Virus record (IMG/VR): IMGVR_UViG_3300030106_000952
Coordinates: 1-22,890 of that record
Source: a virus
DNA: 22,890 nucleotides
Strand: one strand, 5' to 3'
Below the pieces are notes generated by a model. It saw only the letters and a list, made by a program, of their open reading frames with translations. It had not been told where the DNA came from and made no database searches. A program made the position numbers and the translations under genes. Of this stretch, positions 7,841 through 15,856 are shown piece by piece; the stretch's first letter is position 1, and the number at the start of each line of letters is the position of its first letter.

Positions 7841-8107
7841 ATGGCAGGATCAAGAGTAAATTTAGGAAACGCAGGTTTCAAAAAAATGAAATCCAAAGGT
7901 GGTACTACCAAGATGAAATCTAAAGGTGGTGCTATTAAAATGAAATCGAAGGGCGGAATGATTAAAAATAATAAGCCCAAAATGATGTCAAAAGGTGGTA
8001 TGATGAAAAACAACAAACCTAAAATGATGTCAAAAGGTGGTACTGTTAAAAAAGACAAAATGAAAATGATGTCAAAAGGCGGTACTGTAAAAAAATATAA
8101 TAAATAA
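7841..8107 (+). CDS. KGG-repeat, Lys/Met-rich protein
   Basis: An 88-residue protein made almost wholly of a short repeat. After MAGSRVNLGNAGFK there are six copies of K-M-[KM]-S-K-G-G, spaced by 3-8 residues such as MIKNNKP. Composition is limited mainly to Lys, Met, Gly and Ser, so it is strongly positively charged and probably unstructured. Codons vary between copies (TCC/TCT/TCG/TCA, AAA/AAG, GGT/GGC), which suggests the peptide rather than the DNA is conserved. Lys-rich proteins of this kind could bind packaged DNA or membranes, but no function is established. The start follows TAGGAGAG by 6 bases. Confidence 0.75.
   Translation: MAGSRVNLGNAGFKKMKSKGGTTKMKSKGGAIKMKSKGGMIKNNKPKMMSKGGMMKNNKPKMMSKGGTVKKDKMKMMSKGGTVKKYNK
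7886..8098 (+). repeat. Six tandem KM(K/M)SKGG-coding repeats
   Basis: Six units begin with ATGAAATC or ATGATGTC and continue AAAGGTGG, with unit lengths of 27 to 42 bases. The last three are nearly identical in ATGATGTCAAAAGG, the first three more diverged at synonymous positions. They are confined to the 88-residue gene. Confidence 0.9.
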
Positions 8108-8824: not shown

Positions 8825-8978
8825 AACTTTTATAAAAAGAGTTGCAGGAGCTACCATAGGTGTCAGGGCGAATGATGCTCTTCAAAATGTATTTGGTACA
8901 GGAAGAGTTAAAATTGGCGGTGGGTTAATTGCAGCAGGCCAAGGAGCAAAAATGTTCGATAAAAAGAAAGTAAAATAA
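8808..8978 (+). CDS. Small basic Gly-rich protein (56 aa)
   Basis: A 56-residue protein of unknown function. It begins MKKNGKTFIKRVAGATIGVR and ends with a glycine-rich, mildly hydrophobic stretch (KIGGGLIAAGQGAKMF) and a Lys tail. The ATG at 8808 is preferred over an upstream in-frame ATG at 8766 because AGGAG (8796-8800) lies 7 bases before it and the longer form would overlap the preceding gene by almost 60 bases. The last A of its stop is the first base of the next start. Confidence 0.68.
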   Translation: MKKNGKTFIKRVAGATIGVRANDALQNVFGTGRVKIGGGLIAAGQGAKMFDKKKVK

Positions 8979-9646
8979 TGGCGGTATCAGGTAGCACAGA
9001 TTTTGAACTAGACGTTGCAGAATACATCGAAGAAGCTTTTGAGCGTTGTGGTATAGAGGTTAGAACGGGTTATGATTTAAAATCAGCCAGACGTTCTCTT
9101 AATCTTATGTTGGCAGAATGGGCTAATAGAGGTTTAAACCAATGGACTATATCTCAATCAACACAAGCTTTAACAAAAGGCACGGGCAATTATACTTTAG
9201 ATTCTGGTGTTATTGACGTTTTATCTGTTGTAGTAAGAAGAGACGGCACAGATTTTTCTTTGGACAGGATTAGTAGAGATACCTATCTTGCTATACCAAC
9301 TAAAACAACAGAGGCTAGGCCTTCACAATTTTTCTTGGATAGACAGATACAACCTGTTTTAAAACTTTGGCCTGTGCCAGAAAACTCAACAGATACTGTC
9401 ATATTTGATGCTTTAACACGTATGGATGATGCAGATACTTACGTCAATACAGTGGATATGCCCTTTCGTTTTTTTCCTTGCCTAGCAGCAGGTCTTGCTT
9501 ATTATATTTCAATAAAAAGGGCTCCCAATAAAACACAATTATTAAAAGCTGTTTATGAAGAGGAGTTTGAAAGGGCCATGACCGAAGATAGAGACAGAGC
9601 TTCTTTTAAGGTTGTACCTCAGTTTGAGTATTTTAGGGTTAGTTGA
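8978..9646 (+). CDS. Head-tail connector/adaptor (P22 gp4 or T7 gp11-type role)
   Basis: A 222-residue protein with the features of ring-forming connector proteins that sit under the portal. Seen: an N-terminal helical region (ELDVAEYIEEAFERCGIEVR, then SARRSLNLMLAEWANRGLNQ), a W-T-I motif, a beta domain with LDSGVIDVLSVVVRRDG, the segment RPSQFFLDRQIQPVLKLWPV followed by Pro, and a C-terminal helical pair around PFRFFPCLAAGLAYYISIKR and YEEEFERAMTEDRDRASFK. This helix-beta-helix layout, with the conserved [KR].WP.P turn, is usual for tail accessory or tail tubular A-like proteins of short-tailed phages. The fold-level assignment is inference. It is coupled to both neighbours by TAATG and TGATG. 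Confidence 0.75.
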   Translation: MAVSGSTDFELDVAEYIEEAFERCGIEVRTGYDLKSARRSLNLMLAEWANRGLNQWTISQSTQALTKGTGNYTLDSGVIDVLSVVVRRDGTDFSLDRISRDTYLAIPTKTTEARPSQFFLDRQIQPVLKLWPVPENSTDTVIFDALTRMDDADTYVNTVDMPFRFFPCLAAGLAYYISIKRAPNKTQLLKAVYEEEFERAMTEDRDRASFKVVPQFEYFRVS

Positions 9647-10524
9647 TGGCTAAATTTGGACGAGGAAAACATTCTTACGCCATATCGGATAGATCAGGTT
9701 TTCGATATTTATATCGTGATATGCGTAAAGAATGGAACGGTTTACTCGTTGGTCCAGATGAATATGAACCTAAACAACCACAATTAGGTCCTTTTAGAAC
9801 AGTTTCTGATGCTCAAGCTTTAAAAGACGCTAGACCACAAAATCCTGATCTTAACACACCTTTTTTAGTAAAAACAACAAATGGTATATTTAGTGGGGCA
9901 AAAGCAGAATTACCTTCTTCTATAGATAATTTAGAAGCTCTAGTGGCAGGTATAGGTTCTGTCGTAATACCTGATGCAAACCCTACCTATGATACTCAAA
10001 GCTATGTAATGACGGGTTCCGTTGGAAGCGTAGAAATAAATAATGAAAATAGTGCTTCAGTAACAGGTATAGCGGGAACAAGCGCAGTGGGCACGGTTAC
10101 GATTACTAACGACAATACTGCTTCTATCACAGGATTAGCGGGCACTTCAGCCGTTGGTAGTGTTACAATAACTACTAACATTACGACATACGCTGTAACT
10201 GTAGCTACTGGCACAAACAGCTATGGAACAGGTAATAAATTCTACATTGACGGTAGTGTTTCTCCAACCTTAAATTTAAGTGAGGGTAGCACCTATAGAT
10301 TTGACCAATCAGACTCTAGCAATTCTACGCATCCTTTACGTTTTTCCACCACAGCTAATGGTTCGCACGGGGGTGGTTCGGAGTATACGACAGGTGTTAC
10401 AACTAATGGTACACCAGGAAGCTCTGGAGCTTATACACAAATAACCGTTGCTAGTGGAGCGCCAACATTGTATTACTATTGTACCAATCACAGTGGCATG
10501 GGAGGTCAAGCGAATACACCATGA
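9646..10524 (+). CDS. Virion protein with cupredoxin-like C-terminal domain
   Basis: A 292-residue, three-part protein. Residues 1-66 are a marine-phage module (MAKFGRGKHSYAISDRSGFR, EWNGLLVGPDEYEPKQPQLG) that I recall as a separate small structural protein in other phages. Residues 122-178 are degenerate copies of an 18-22 residue repeat (VTGIAGTSAVGTVTITND, ITGLAGTSAVGSVTITTN). Residues 181-288 look like a cupredoxin: YAVTVATG, LNLSEGSTYRFDQSDSSNST, HPLRFS with His229, and LYYYCTNHSGM with Cys279, His282 and Met285, the His, C-x2-H-x2-M ligand set of type 1 copper proteins. Without proof of copper binding the domain could be structural only. The ATG at 9646 overlaps the previous TGA; the TTG at 9643 is not needed. 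Confidence 0.8.
   Translation: MAKFGRGKHSYAISDRSGFRYLYRDMRKEWNGLLVGPDEYEPKQPQLGPFRTVSDAQALKDARPQNPDLNTPFLVKTTNGIFSGAKAELPSSIDNLEALVAGIGSVVIPDANPTYDTQSYVMTGSVGSVEINNENSASVTGIAGTSAVGTVTITNDNTASITGLAGTSAVGSVTITTNITTYAVTVATGTNSYGTGNKFYIDGSVSPTLNLSEGSTYRFDQSDSSNSTHPLRFSTTANGSHGGGSEYTTGVTTNGTPGSSGAYTQITVASGAPTLYYYCTNHSGMGGQANTP
10009..10179 (+). repeat. VTG.AGTSAVGTVTIT repeats (two good copies, one degenerate)
   Basis: Residues 122-178 of the cupredoxin-domain protein contain MTGSVGSVEI (degenerate), VTGIAGTSAVGTVTIT and ITGLAGTSAVGSVTIT. The two good copies use different codons for the same residues, so they are not a very recent duplication. The same repeat fills the gene at 12102-12782. Confidence 0.85.
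10186..10509 (+). other. Cupredoxin-like domain
   Basis: Codes for residues 181-288. The strand pattern is beta-rich with a T-Y-R-F-D-Q-S-D core, and four candidate copper ligands are in the canonical order: His229 (in HPLRFS), Cys279, His282 and Met285 (in YYCTNHSGM). Spacing of Cys, His and Met by three residues each is the C..H..M pattern of many bacterial plastocyanin/azurin-type domains. Confidence 0.72.
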
Positions 10525-11372
10525 GTTTTACCTTAACGACTTTAAGATCCTCTATACAGGATTATACAGAAAATACAGAAACTAGTTTTTTAAATAATTT
10601 AAGCACTTTTATTCAACTTGCTGAAGAAAGAATATTAAAAAGCGTACAATTAAATGTTTTTGAAAAAAATGTATCAGGCAGTATGACTTCAAGTAATCAG
10701 TACTTAGCTTGTCCTAGTGATTTTTTGGCGCCAAATTCTTTGACTATCACAAATAGTAGTAATTATACATACCTACAATTTAAGGAAAAAGAGTTTGTAC
10801 AATCATATACACCTAATCCTGCAACAACAGGCGTTCCTAAATATTATGCCCAATTTGACGTAGATAATTTTGTCATAGCTCCTACACCTGATAGTGGTTA
10901 TACTGTTGATTTAAGTTATTTTTATCGACCTGCTAGTATTACAAGTAGTGTGGTCACTTTCACTGTAACCAGTAGTGCTTCCTTTACTGTTGGAGAAACT
11001 ATTACGGGTGGCACATCAGGTGCAACTACTACTGTTTCATCAAAGCCTTCTAGTACAACTATGGAAGTTATTGTTCCTTTAAATAGTTTTACTGCTTTAG
11101 AAACAATTACAGGTAGTAGTTCTGGTGCTTCGACCTCTTTAGTTTCATTTACTTCAGATACAACAGAAACTTGGTTAAGTACCAACGCTGAGATAGCTTT
11201 ACTTTACGGATCTCTAATAGAATGTTATATTTACATGAAAGGTGATGCAGACGTAATGAATATGTATAACAGTCGTTTTGCAGAAGCCATAGGTAGATTA
11301 AAGAACTTAGGAGAAGCAAAAGAAGTGATCGATGAATATACAATGGGACCGATTAGAAAGGCGAGGACATAA
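10521..11372 (+). CDS. Phage adaptor/tail tube-like protein with inserted repeat domain
   Basis: A 283-residue protein of the phage adaptor group. The N-terminus (LTTLRSSIQDYTENTETSFL, FIQLAEERILKSVQLNVFEK) and the beta core (YLACPSDFLAPNSLTITNSS, GVPKYYAQFDVDNFVIAPTP) lead to FYRPAS at 135-140. The family's usual next segment, TWLSTNAEIALLYGSLIECY (218-237), is displaced by about 70 residues containing two copies of a small beta repeat (FTVGETITGGTSGATTTV and FTALETITGSSSGASTSLV). After it the protein resumes with MYNSRFAEAIGRLKNLGEAK. It probably joins the tail to the head ring. The start is the ATG at 10521, which overlaps the preceding stop (ATGA), rather than 10479. Confidence 0.76.
   Translation: MSFTLTTLRSSIQDYTENTETSFLNNLSTFIQLAEERILKSVQLNVFEKNVSGSMTSSNQYLACPSDFLAPNSLTITNSSNYTYLQFKEKEFVQSYTPNPATTGVPKYYAQFDVDNFVIAPTPDSGYTVDLSYFYRPASITSSVVTFTVTSSASFTVGETITGGTSGATTTVSSKPSSTTMEVIVPLNSFTALETITGSSSGASTSLVSFTSDTTETWLSTNAEIALLYGSLIECYIYMKGDADVMNMYNSRFAEAIGRLKNLGEAKEVIDEYTMGPIRKART
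10941..11156 (+). other. Inserted double repeat in the adaptor gene
   Basis: Residues about 141-212 of the adaptor protein contain two copies of F-T-[VA]-x-E-T-I-T-G-[GS]-[TS]-S-G-A-[TS]-T. The insert is Ser/Thr/Val-rich and unlike its flanks, which together look like one continuous adaptor domain. It is best read as a surface-exposed module added between two strands. Confidence 0.65.
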
Positions 11373-11665: not shown

Positions 11666-12102
11666 TGGCATTTACTGGAAACTTTTTATGCACCTCTTTT
11701 AAAACGGAACTTTTAAAAGGTGTACACAATTTTACCGCGACAACGGGAAATACTTTTAACATAGCATTATATGACAATAGTGCGTCTTTTACCGCTGCCA
11801 CTACTGCGTATACTTCAAGTAATGAAATAAGTGGTACAAACTACTCAGCTAAAGGGCAAGCTCTTAACCCCGTTACGCCTACCGCGAGTGGTACAACAGC
11901 TTTAGTTGATTTTGCAGATGAAGTATTTAGTAACGTAACTATTAGTTCTGTAAGAGGCGCTTTAATTTTTAATGAGACAGCTACAGGAGATCCTTCTGTT
12001 GCTGTATTAGATTTTGGTGCAGATAAGGCAGCCAGTAGTGGTGATTTTACCATTGTGTTTCCAACTGCTGATGCGAGTAACGCAATAATCAGGATTGCTT
12101 AA
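11665..12102 (+). CDS. Conserved beta-rich virion protein (145 aa)
   Basis: A 145-residue protein with a pattern common in marine phage tail regions: an N-terminal FLCTSFKTELLKGVHNFTAT, then NIALYDNSASFTAATTAYTS, NEISGTNYSAKGQAL, a Val-rich strand VTISSVRGALIFNETATGDP, and an end in FPTADASNAIIRIA. It resembles small tail or fibre-associated proteins of other phages, with no characterised member known to me. The ATG at 11665 overlaps the previous TGA and follows AAGGAG by about 7 bases; an in-frame GTG one codon upstream is not preferred. Its stop overlaps the next start (TAATG). Confidence 0.75.
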   Translation: MAFTGNFLCTSFKTELLKGVHNFTATTGNTFNIALYDNSASFTAATTAYTSSNEISGTNYSAKGQALNPVTPTASGTTALVDFADEVFSNVTISSVRGALIFNETATGDPSVAVLDFGADKAASSGDFTIVFPTADASNAIIRIA

Positions 12103-12782
12103 TGTCAACAATCGTTGCATTTAAAGGATGGAATAGCTCTTTAACACCTTGGGGGTCTAGTACTTGGGGTGGTGAGGTTGCGTTCACGGGTGCAACGGCC
12201 TCTGTTGGTTCTATAGCAATTGATGCAGATGGTAATGTAGGTGTCTTTGGTGTTGCGGGGACAGGAGCAGTAGGGACCGTAACAGTTAATTTTGATTTTG
12301 CAGTTAGTGTAACGGGTGTTGCGGGCACTTCTGCTATCGACACAGTAAATGCTATTGGTTTAGGTAATATTTCTGTAACGGGCGTAGCGGGTACAAGCGC
12401 CTTGGGTAACATTTTTGAAACTCAAAATGGTGTTGCGGGTACAAGCGCTGTTGGCACAGTTACTACAACGGGTTTTGCTAACATCTCTGTAACAGGGTTA
12501 GCAGGTACAACGTCTTTAGGTAATACGTTTGAAACTTTAAATGGCGTGTCAGGTACAAGCGCTATTGGTACAGTCACTACTACAGGCTTTGCTAATATCG
12601 ATGTTTCAGGCGTAGCGGGAACTATGGCTATTGGTAGAACGACAGAAACGATTATACCAACTTGGGGCCAAATTATTCCAACACAGGACGCTAGTTATAG
12701 CACGGTCACGCCAAGTCAAACGCCTAGTTATAATACAATAACCCCAAGTCAAGATCCATCTTGGCTTGATAAAGCAGCATGA
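12102..12782 (+). CDS. Repeat-built surface protein
   Basis: A 226-residue protein built almost only of repeats. Residues 10-25 form a Trp/Gly motif (WNSSLTPWGSSTWGGE). Residues 28-183 hold seven good copies and one degenerate copy of a G-V-A-G-T-S-A-[VIL]-G-x-[VI] unit, partly as a 38-residue higher-order repeat (16 + 22 residues) present twice. Residues 191-223 are three copies of an 11-residue unit of the type [IV]-[IT]-P-[ST]-Q-x-[AP]-S-[YW]-x-x. It probably forms a beta-structured rod or multimeric surface element, but no function is known. It sits directly before the tail fibre. Confidence 0.75.
   Translation: MSTIVAFKGWNSSLTPWGSSTWGGEVAFTGATASVGSIAIDADGNVGVFGVAGTGAVGTVTVNFDFAVSVTGVAGTSAIDTVNAIGLGNISVTGVAGTSALGNIFETQNGVAGTSAVGTVTTTGFANISVTGLAGTTSLGNTFETLNGVSGTSAIGTVTTTGFANIDVSGVAGTMAIGRTTETIIPTWGQIIPTQDASYSTVTPSQTPSYNTITPSQDPSWLDKAA
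12183..12650 (+). repeat. Seven to eight VTGVAGTSA.GTV repeats
   Basis: Codes for residues 28-183 of the repeat protein. Units share GTAGCGGG/GTTGCGGG-type codons followed by GTACAAGCGC in several copies, and two 114-base blocks repeat as pairs (GVAGTSALGNIFETQN with GVAGTSAVGTVTTTGFANIS, and their second copies). Same unit as at 10009-10179. Confidence 0.9.
12672..12770 (+). repeat. Three 33-base repeats (11-residue units)
   Basis: Units encode IIPTQDASYST, VTPSQTPSYNT and ITPSQDPSWLD. The period is exact at 33 bases, and codons differ between copies while P-[ST]-Q and S-[YW] are kept. Confidence 0.85.
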
Positions 12783-12793
12783 GGATATAAAAA

Positions 12794-15700
12794 ATGCCAA
12801 GTACATATACAACCAACACAGGTATAGAAAAGATAGCCACAGGTGAGCAGTCGGGAACTTGGGGCAATACAACCAATACAAATTTAGATCTTATAGACCA
12901 GTCTACAAATGGTATTGTTGAAATTACGGTGTCGAGCGCGGCTACATCTGGATCGCCAAATAGCTTACCTATTACTAATGGAGCTTTATCAAATGGTAGA
13001 AACGTATACATTGAGTTTAAGGACGGTGGTGATTTAGGTGGCACTGTCTATTATCAACTTGATCCAAATGATGCAGAAAAAGTAGTTCATGTTAGAAATA
13101 ATCTAACGAATCAAGCCCTAATATTATTTCAAGGAACTTATAATTCTAGCAATGATATTGAAATACCTAACGGTAAAGATATGGTTGTAAAGTTTGACGG
13201 GGCGGGTTCTGGTGCTACTGTTGAACAGGTTGATAAAAACTTAAATCCTACAACTGTTGCCGTAACAGGCGCTATTGCCGTGACAGGTGATTATTCTTCT
13301 ACAACTTCTGGAACGTCAAATCTTAGACTAGGTGTCAACGCAGGTAATTCTATCGCTTCTGGTGGTAATTATAATGTTGCTGTTGGTGATGAAGCAGGAA
13401 CAGCTATTAATACAGGAGATGAAAATACTGTAGTAGGGTATAAGGCAGGAGAAGCTGTTACAACAGGTGTTAGAAACACTCTAATTGGTGCTACAGCAGG
13501 TGATGAAATTGTTGGTGGTGAACGTAATACTGCTGTGGGATATGGTGCATTACATTCTGAAACTGAAGGAGACAGAAATACTGCTGTTGGTGTATTTGCT
13601 TTAAGCACTCAAAACACTTCAACTGGTGGTAATGTCTATAATACTGGTGTTGGCTATGGAGCAGGTAATGCTATCACAACAGGTGTAAGAAATGTTATTG
13701 TAGGAGCGCAAGCTTTAGACGCAGAGACAGCAGGTAGTAGGTCTGTTGCAGTTGGGTATGCAGCACTAAGCGCACAAAATTTTACAACTGCTACGGATGT
13801 CTATAATACAGCAGTCGGTCATAATGCAGGTCTTAGTGTTACAACAGCTAGAAACAATACTCTTATAGGAGCTTTATCAGGTGATGCTTTAACAGTAGGT
13901 ACTGAAAATGTGGCTGTTGGTAAAGGTGCATTAAGCACTGACACTTCAGGTAGCAGATCAACAGCATTAGGTTTTGAAGCATTATTTACTCAAAATCAAT
14001 CAACTGCAGCAAATGCTTATAATGTTGCTGTGGGATATGCATCAGGTTTATCAGTCACAACAGGAATTAGAAATACTATAGTAGGAGCATTAGCAGGTGA
14101 TGCCTTAACAGTAGGTGAAGACAATGTTGCTATTGGAACAGATGCTCTTTCTACTGATACAGATGGTCACAGAACAGTTGCTGTTGGTAAAGGTGCATTA
14201 AACTCTCAACTTTTTGGAACTGGTACAAATACTTATAATGTAGCTGTTGGTTATGAAGCAGGAACTTCTGTTACTTCAGGTACAGGAAACACCTTAATAG
14301 GTGGGCAATCAGCAGATGCTTTAACAACAGGTGGAGAAAACACATCTGTTGGATACCTTGCTTTGACCACTGATACTGCAGGTAGTAGAAGCACAGCTAT
14401 AGGAAGAGGAGCATTAGCTACTCAAAATTTTACTACATCCACAAATGCTTACAATGTAGCTATTGGGTATGATGCAGGACTTGATATTACAACAGGATTA
14501 GAAAATACACTTATAGGAAGTTTAGCAGGAGATAATTACACAACAGGCAGTTATAATGTGGCTGTAGGAGTTGGAGCTTTAAGTACTGACCAATTAGGTA
14601 CTAGAAGTACAGCTATTGGAAATGCAGCTTTGTTTAATCAAAATCCGGGTACTACAACAACTATGTATAATGTGGCTATTGGTCATGTTGCAGGTGAATC
14701 TATTACAACAGGTATACAGAACACTCTTATAGGCGCACTAGCAGGTGATGCACTTACAGATGCTGATTATAATGTAGCTTTGGGAGTAACAGCTTTAAGT
14801 GGGGATACGAAGGGCAGTAAATCAACAGCAATAGGATATAGTACGCTTGTTAATCAAAACTTTACCGCTTCAACAAACACTAACAACACGGCAGTCGGTT
14901 TTGAAGCAGGAATGTCTGTCACAACAGGTTTTCAAAACACTCTTATAGGTGCTGCCGCAGGTGATGCTTTAACTACAGGTCAAGAAAATGTTGCTTTAGG
15001 ATATGCAGCTTTGAGTAATGATGATGTAGGAAACCATTCTGTTGCAATTGGATGGAACGCTTTAATATCTCAAAACTACAGTACATCTACAGACAGTAAT
15101 AATGTAGCAGTAGGTTGGAATTCTGGTTCAGCAATTACAACAGGTCTTAATAATACGTTTGTAGGTTCTCATGCAGGTGATGGAACAGATGATGGTGGTA
15201 ATAATGTGGCAGTGGGGTATCAAGCATTAAGTGCTAATTGTGGAAACAGTAATACAGCAGTGGGATATCAAGCGTTAGCTGTTTGCACTGGTTCAGACAA
15301 TACCTGTGTCGGTCTTTTGGCAGGAAGTAATGTAACCTCTGGCTCTAATAATCTTTTTTTAGGACATGATGCAGGTATAACAGGAAGTCCGGGTGGAAAT
15401 TTTGCAGCAGCTTCCAATGAAATTGTTTTGGGAGATGAAAATATCACTGACTTTAATTGTCAAGTTTCATTAACTGTAGCTTCTGACCAGAGAGATAAAA
15501 CAGATTTTACTGCCTTAGATTTAGGTATGAATTTTGTAAAAGCTCTTAAACCATACACTTTTAAATGGGATAAAAGGTCAAAGTATATCGATAAGACAGA
15601 CCCCTCTGTGGATTTAAACAAAGTTACAACAGATGGAACACATAAAGAAGATCAATTAGATGTTGGTTTTAAAGCTCAAGACGTTGTGGCATTAGAAGAA

Positions 15701-15856
15701 GCATCTAATTATAAGATTTCAGATAAAACAAATTTAACTGTAAATCTTTCTAGTGATGGAAAACAATATGCTATGAGATATGAAAAGTTAGTTCCTATTC
15801 TTGTAAAAGCCATACAAGAATTAGAAGCTAGAGTTGCAACCTTAGAAGGAGGATAA
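12794..15856 (+). CDS. Tail fibre with 72-residue repeats and S74 self-cleaving chaperone
   Basis: A 1020-residue fibre. The N-terminus (TYTTNTGIEKIATGEQSGTW, then NTNLDLIDQ) is a head module I recognise from marine phage fibres and probably anchors it to the tail. Residues 192-864 form a long beta-structured shaft of N-T-A-V-G-x-x-A-type rungs resembling YadA/Hep_Hag heads of trimeric adhesins. From residue 228 these form eight units, seven of 72 and one of 55 residues. The C-terminus (897-1020) is an intramolecular chaperone of the Peptidase_S74 type starting SDQRDKTDF, with Ser897 and Lys902 as the likely catalytic pair (spacing of five, as in endosialidase), and a final coiled coil LVKAIQELEARVATLE. 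It should trimerise, fold the shaft and cut itself off. Confidence 0.9.
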   Translation: MPSTYTTNTGIEKIATGEQSGTWGNTTNTNLDLIDQSTNGIVEITVSSAATSGSPNSLPITNGALSNGRNVYIEFKDGGDLGGTVYYQLDPNDAEKVVHVRNNLTNQALILFQGTYNSSNDIEIPNGKDMVVKFDGAGSGATVEQVDKNLNPTTVAVTGAIAVTGDYSSTTSGTSNLRLGVNAGNSIASGGNYNVAVGDEAGTAINTGDENTVVGYKAGEAVTTGVRNTLIGATAGDEIVGGERNTAVGYGALHSETEGDRNTAVGVFALSTQNTSTGGNVYNTGVGYGAGNAITTGVRNVIVGAQALDAETAGSRSVAVGYAALSAQNFTTATDVYNTAVGHNAGLSVTTARNNTLIGALSGDALTVGTENVAVGKGALSTDTSGSRSTALGFEALFTQNQSTAANAYNVAVGYASGLSVTTGIRNTIVGALAGDALTVGEDNVAIGTDALSTDTDGHRTVAVGKGALNSQLFGTGTNTYNVAVGYEAGTSVTSGTGNTLIGGQSADALTTGGENTSVGYLALTTDTAGSRSTAIGRGALATQNFTTSTNAYNVAIGYDAGLDITTGLENTLIGSLAGDNYTTGSYNVAVGVGALSTDQLGTRSTAIGNAALFNQNPGTTTTMYNVAIGHVAGESITTGIQNTLIGALAGDALTDADYNVALGVTALSGDTKGSKSTAIGYSTLVNQNFTASTNTNNTAVGFEAGMSVTTGFQNTLIGAAAGDALTTGQENVALGYAALSNDDVGNHSVAIGWNALISQNYSTSTDSNNVAVGWNSGSAITTGLNNTFVGSHAGDGTDDGGNNVAVGYQALSANCGNSNTAVGYQALAVCTGSDNTCVGLLAGSNVTSGSNNLFLGHDAGITGSPGGNFAAASNEIVLGDENITDFNCQVSLTVASDQRDKTDFTALDLGMNFVKALKPYTFKWDKRSKYIDKTDPSVDLNKVTTDGTHKEDQLDVGFKAQDVVALEEASNYKISDKTNLTVNLSSDGKQYAMRYEKLVPILVKAIQELEARVATLEGG
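13367..15385 (+). repeat. Fibre shaft repeats, 216-base period
   Basis: Residues 192-864. Eight regular units begin at residues 228, 300, 355, 427, 499, 571, 643 and 715. Each has four rungs of about 16-22 residues (NTLIGALAGDALTTG.., NVAVG..ALSTDT.GSR, STAIG..AL..QN....N.YN, VAIGY.AG..ITTG..). The second unit has 55 residues, 17 short. The last partial unit (787 onwards) contains the only three shaft cysteines. Confidence 0.92.
15482..15856 (+). other. Peptidase S74 intramolecular chaperone domain
   Basis: Codes for residues 897-1020 of the fibre. The pattern S-D-x-R-x-K, then F.KWDKR, LDVGFKAQDV and a C-terminal coiled coil match the S74 family, which cleaves just before the Ser after trimer folding. 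The mature fibre would end at Ala896. Confidence 0.85.

Follow-up and report, generated by a model that had tools for sequence, protein, structure and literature searches.

A cupredoxin-like domain with a predicted type-1 copper site is an optional cassette in a probable phage virion protein

A probable virion accessory protein of 292 amino acids, encoded at positions 9646..10524 of a viral DNA stretch of 22,890 nucleotides (IMG/VR record IMGVR_UViG_3300030106_000952; the whole stretch is called the window below), carries a C-terminal cupredoxin-like domain. Alignments and a predicted structure support a cupredoxin fold with a complete predicted type-1 copper site, made up of H229, C279, H282 and M285 with a CxxHxxM loop. 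The domain is an optional cassette in this phage group, and its four ligand residues act as one unit, kept or lost together. The cupredoxin fold and the type-1 site themselves are known kinds; the use of such a site as a widespread, optional module of virions, with ligand-dead counterparts in nature, appears to be undescribed. A search of open-access text turned up no article describing a cupredoxin in phage tails or virions, and we know of no described virion with blue-copper-type centres.

Organization of the protein

The gene, its parts and the two flanking adaptor-like genes are on the plus strand. The gene 9646..10524, defined by its translation, residue positions and PHROG matches (tail-fibre, baseplate and structural families), begins with a conserved N-terminal module of about residues 1-90 (9646..9915; phrog_28581). 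This module is found alone in relatives, as a protein of 99-120 amino acids; its structure prediction is unreliable (pLDDT 58.9). A repeat linker of ..VTGxAGTSAVGTVTI.. units, probably a stalk, follows at 9937..10179. The cupredoxin-like domain (residues 181-292, ~112 amino acids; 10186..10521) is delimited by structure prediction, structure search and profile matches. Linker and cupredoxin together constitute a variable cassette (9919..10515), where homology to phages with a short version of the protein breaks off.

The candidate ligands, recognized by their position in the protein and their conservation, are encoded at 10330..10332 (H229, first His), 10480..10482 (C279, Cys), 10489..10491 (H282, second His) and 10498..10500 (M285, axial Met). 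In the translation of 9646-10524, H229 lies within THPLRFS and the other three within YYYCTNHSGMGG. C279 is the sole Cys of the 292 residues. Within the domain, His occurs at positions 229, 241 and 282, and there is no HxH motif. The earlier note, made from the letters alone, had numbered the four ligands exactly as the translation places them. Its start of the domain at residue 181 also stands, while the end, given as residue 288, is better set at about 292 (10186-10521).

Predicted fold and relation to known cupredoxins

The AlphaFold2 model of residues 180-292, built with 70 aligned relatives, has a mean pLDDT of 97.6 and a pTM of 0.89. In a Foldseek search of the PDB, the first rank (E 9.6e-4) goes to a cupredoxin domain from the Hyphomicrobium copper nitrite reductase, an enzyme of three domains, and rusticyanin and CueO come next. 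The VIA-align Z values are moderate, and all the rows listed are copper proteins of cupredoxin fold, including 2dv6 (Z 8.9, rmsd 2.4, 94 residues), rusticyanin (Z 8.6), the purple cupredoxin of Nitrosopumilus (Z 7.6) and auracyanin A (Z 7.2). The predicted model and the PDB matches place the domain in the cupredoxin beta-sandwich fold; type-1 copper proteins rank first in the structure search that the earlier note had proposed as a check. In a viral structure library, 65 predicted proteins match the domain at E < 0.001, and those with names are mostly virion proteins of cyanophages, plus a few giant-virus 'beta-sandwich' proteins. The latter are small and include BFVD A0A481Z6J5 and A0A481Z7Q7 (Pithovirus) and A0A481YVH3 (Marseillevirus).

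A PDB search with the single sequence gave a match that we attribute to chance. With a profile that includes divergent members, plastocyanin 2plt comes first (E 2.4e-4), before copper nitrite reductase, amicyanin, pseudoazurin and rusticyanin. The printed profile alignments set the His, Cys, His and Met of the family onto the plastocyanin ligands, and in this register the order His then Cys-x(2-4)-His-x(2-4)-Met occupies the cupredoxin positions. A profile-profile alignment with PF00127 proteins of bacterial genomes also has the ligands in register, with a P of 4e-6 that is supportive only, since the templates were chosen by ligand pattern. Structure, plastocyanin register, profile-profile alignment and the conservation described below thus support the initial recognition of a cupredoxin fold that retains the full set of type-1 ligands.

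A Pfam search with the 292-residue protein matched no family. PF00127 (Copper-bind) is not matched by the window protein, and its best E among the 70 relatives is 0.008; the domain is therefore not filed under PF00127 itself. PF25489 (At5g54830-like), named after a plant protein, has a cut-off of 27 bits, which distant bacterial members exceed (33.9 bits); the copies of phage P-SSM2 match it weakly (E 1e-4), whereas it has no match in the window and most other phage copies fall short of it. The idea that PF25489 corresponds to the C-terminal domain found in Knickkopf/Skeletor-type proteins received no support.

The predicted beta-sandwich and the order His then Cys-His-Met are common to the phage domain and the PF00127 cupredoxins (plastocyanin, amicyanin, pseudoazurin and rusticyanin); the CxxHxxM spacing is that of amicyanin. 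Unlike these proteins, the phage domain lies within a virion protein without signal peptide, is below PF00127 detection, has a long conserved loop (STT..GTHGGGSEYTTGVT) past the first ligand strand, and belongs to a family with ligand-dead members. The tail-fibre and baseplate families PHROG 30742, 693, 708 and 677 hold the same domain; their names come from the protein that contains it, and neither domain nor copper is named.

Conservation and loss of the ligands

The ligand columns were compared in 136 non-redundant copies, taken from 17 complete phage genomes as well as from viral contigs and cellular genomes. Cys is kept in 118 of the 136. Among these copies, selected on Cys alone, both His are present in 118/118 and Met in 116/118, and in the unfiltered 136-copy alignment the three columns are the most conserved of all (best non-ligand column, 96.6%). 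The two Met exceptions are a SAR86 copy with Gln (L117) and an alignment error (L146). Where another residue occupies the Cys position (16 copies), the first His is found in one copy, the second His in three and Met in one. Copies with one to three ligands number 6, against 50.6 after independent column shuffles, a contrast inflated by relatedness. The profile with divergent members that found plastocyanin (A4) contains only His-Cys-His copies, and its invariant columns were excluded as conservation evidence. Free variation of His and Cys, named earlier as an observation that would speak against the assignment, is absent from the alignment; the residues vary only as a block.

The tree needs 2-5 separate ligand losses, a rough number, as the 123 columns used include the ligands. 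Ligand-dead copies are found in T4-like fibre proteins, in the second domain of gp7-like proteins and in cyanophage PSS2, and also in one lineage of the 9646-10524 gene itself (L298, L301, L305, L306 and L309); in L298 and L301 the sequence reads GYDLRLW ... LRYSSSGNVNDEPLGG. Two of the options named in the earlier note are both seen: the ligands are retained in most copies, while a minority are beta sandwiches devoid of them.

Distribution in phages and cells

Relatives of the domain were found in at least 598 viral-contig stretches, in 324 of 50,697 phage records and at 44 prokaryote-genome loci. Given this spread and the conservation of the ligand columns, the resemblance is far beyond chance. 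In other phages the domain forms part of the baseplate proteins gp7 and gp10, of long tail fibres and of other virion structural proteins; it is also present in a Methylophilales phage tail fibre and in a T7-type tail fibre whose contig is labelled Pelagibacter. These homologues, together with the flanking adaptor genes, support the virion placement given in the earlier note.

In cells, marine bacteria and archaea have the domain in exported proteins, among them SAR86 lipoproteins that also contain cadherin-like and subtilase domains, and archaeal lipoproteins that contain collagen-like repeats. About 20 Gammaproteobacteria (L151-L173) carry the domain (..YYxCRNHKxMGGKI..) in ~500-residue proteins with a signal peptide or lipobox; the conserved C-terminal region after the domain in these proteins has no Pfam family. 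Signal peptides and lipoboxes of cellular proteins were judged by eye. Several 'bacterial' loci look like phage DNA, and one of them (L099) has a T7 tail-fibre N-terminus. Cellular status is claimed only for proteins with signal peptides or lipoboxes or on long contigs, such as L113 (1.19 Mb contig), L149, located over 600 kb into its contig, and L167, located over 3.6 Mb into its own. A Cellvibrionales protein (L131:4509-5654) combines a signal peptide and a C-terminal membrane anchor with three cupredoxin-like domains in tandem, each with the full ligand set. The SAR86 copy L117:734-1009 has Gln in place of the axial Met, a swap known from stellacyanin-type sites.

An optional cassette between adaptor-like genes

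The gene lies between two genes for SU10-adaptor-like proteins (both PF24175), at 8978..9646 upstream and 10524..11372 downstream, and the N-terminal-module gene sits directly between two such genes in this phage group. Among loci with enough DNA, the upstream neighbour is conserved in 127/134 and the downstream one in 99/106. Homology to the 110-residue version of relatives ends at 9918 and restarts at 10516. The blocks that flank the cassette are about 90-98% identical in relatives with the short version (L242-L247). In another relative (L241) the adaptor proteins are 100% identical to those of the window, and between them are a repeat-only version and a separate cupredoxin ORF with another N-terminus, whose cupredoxin is unlike that of the window and keeps all four ligands (YQCSNHSSM). 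This ORF, at about 1490-2150, stands in place of the fused domain, and its N-terminus is of fibre type (IGSSANDGTGDTLRAGADKINDNF); ORFs of the same type are present in L295-L297.

The N-terminal module led to 74 loci, a sample that leans to near relatives: the cassette is missing from 57 and long in 17. Every one of the 17 long cassettes contains a cupredoxin fold, 12 with intact ligands and 5 ligand-dead (one lineage), and these cupredoxins fall into two unlike forms. The slot takes the cupredoxin fold specifically.

Possible function

The best explanation, to which we give about even odds (a probability near 0.5), is a displayed, copper-capable host-contact module on the tailed marine phage virion, metal-dependent in shape or recognition. 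The protein would be a small virion accessory, placed by gene order probably at the neck or head-tail connector. Its N-terminal module may anchor it on the particle, and the repeat linker may serve as a stalk with the optional cupredoxin displayed at the appendage tip. The predicted site would probably take up copper from seawater or from the lysed host after release, and the domain may then contact the host surface with a shape or recognition set by the bound metal. Judged from alignments and models, the virus particles of many marine phages, this one included, probably carry copper on a small appendage. Contact with the host is suggested because gain, loss and swap of a cassette between similar phages typify host-contact modules, and because homologues occur in fibres, baseplates and secreted cell-surface proteins. 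Copper would be unneeded for the basic role of the protein, since most close relatives are without the cassette and one lineage is ligand-free.

The cyanophage gene petE (plastocyanin) is likewise a cupredoxin encoded by marine phages, and is a metabolic gene working in the infected host. Its product is a stand-alone soluble electron carrier, whereas the present domain is the C-terminal part of a 292-residue protein encoded between adaptor genes. A metal site with possible ecological meaning has also been proposed on phage tails in the form of iron-binding HxH motifs of tail fibres (T4 gp37), with the idea of a Trojan horse (PMC11705849); motif, fold and probable metal all differ from those of the cupredoxin domain. 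A more extended proposal, which we consider doubtful, is that virions show a type-1 copper centre filled after lysis and, when copper-bound, engage host surfaces, possibly copper-handling proteins. Cassette exchange might then tune the contact, and the particles might form a tightly bound pool of seawater copper, a copper counterpart of the iron Trojan horse.

The main rival to the host-contact reading gives the metal a structural role: copper, or the bare fold, might merely protect a beta sandwich of the virion from unfolding or from proteolysis in seawater, with no recognition or redox activity. Ligand-free copies of the fold in several virion proteins, including the 9646-10524 gene in relatives, indicate that the sandwich alone can suffice, but the ligands are otherwise kept nearly without exception and a pure scaffold needs no full type-1 set; other stable sandwiches exist, yet the slot accepts only the cupredoxin fold. 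We regard this role as unlikely. Less probable again is that the copper centre exchanges electrons, for example with a host surface protein or reactive oxygen species, at attachment or in the water. The ligand set is that of electron-transfer proteins, in register with plastocyanin, and distant cellular members reach the Pfam family named after At5g54830, a plant protein with redox domains. Against electron exchange, no redox partner, haem or second copper domain was found in the protein or its neighbours, and it is not obvious where a virion would obtain electrons.

In vitro, type-1 sites also take up Zn, Co or Ag, and Zn or Fe might occupy the site instead of copper. The iron of the tail-fibre HxH motifs is a precedent (PMC11705849), but His...CxxHxxM is the set of type-1 copper proteins and there is no HxH motif here, which makes another metal quite improbable. 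A chance resemblance, in which the domain would be an immunoglobulin-like sandwich that happens to have the His, Cys, His and Met, is very improbable. Through the ..YYC.. strand, the first, narrow profile did match antibodies alongside plastocyanin; with divergent members added, plastocyanins came first. The broader profile ranks cupredoxins first, the structure search ranks type-1 copper proteins first, and the four residues are conserved jointly and lost jointly.

If the predicted site is filled, ocean phage particles carry blue-copper-type centres. A common but unnamed module of marine phage tails would then have a function open to test, and host contact would be linked to trace-metal chemistry. 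Naturally occurring proteins that lack the domain, or have the fold minus the ligands, are ready-made controls.

Other genes of the window

Downstream of the adaptor-like genes, a protein at 12102-12782 consists mostly of VTGxAGTSAVGTV repeats and is 44-57% identical to the linker of the cupredoxin protein. It is followed at 12794-15856 by a tail spike-like protein of 1020 residues, which contains numerous repeated units and ends in a Peptidase_S74 chaperone domain. A 2OG-Fe(II) oxygenase family protein (PF13759) is encoded at 6-641, upstream of a GTA-type holin (844-1245). A GroES-like co-chaperonin (PF00166; 2870-3229) lies amid phage structural genes, and a short Lys/Gly/Met-rich repeat protein (KMKSKGG, NNKPKMMSKGG) is encoded at 7841-8107.
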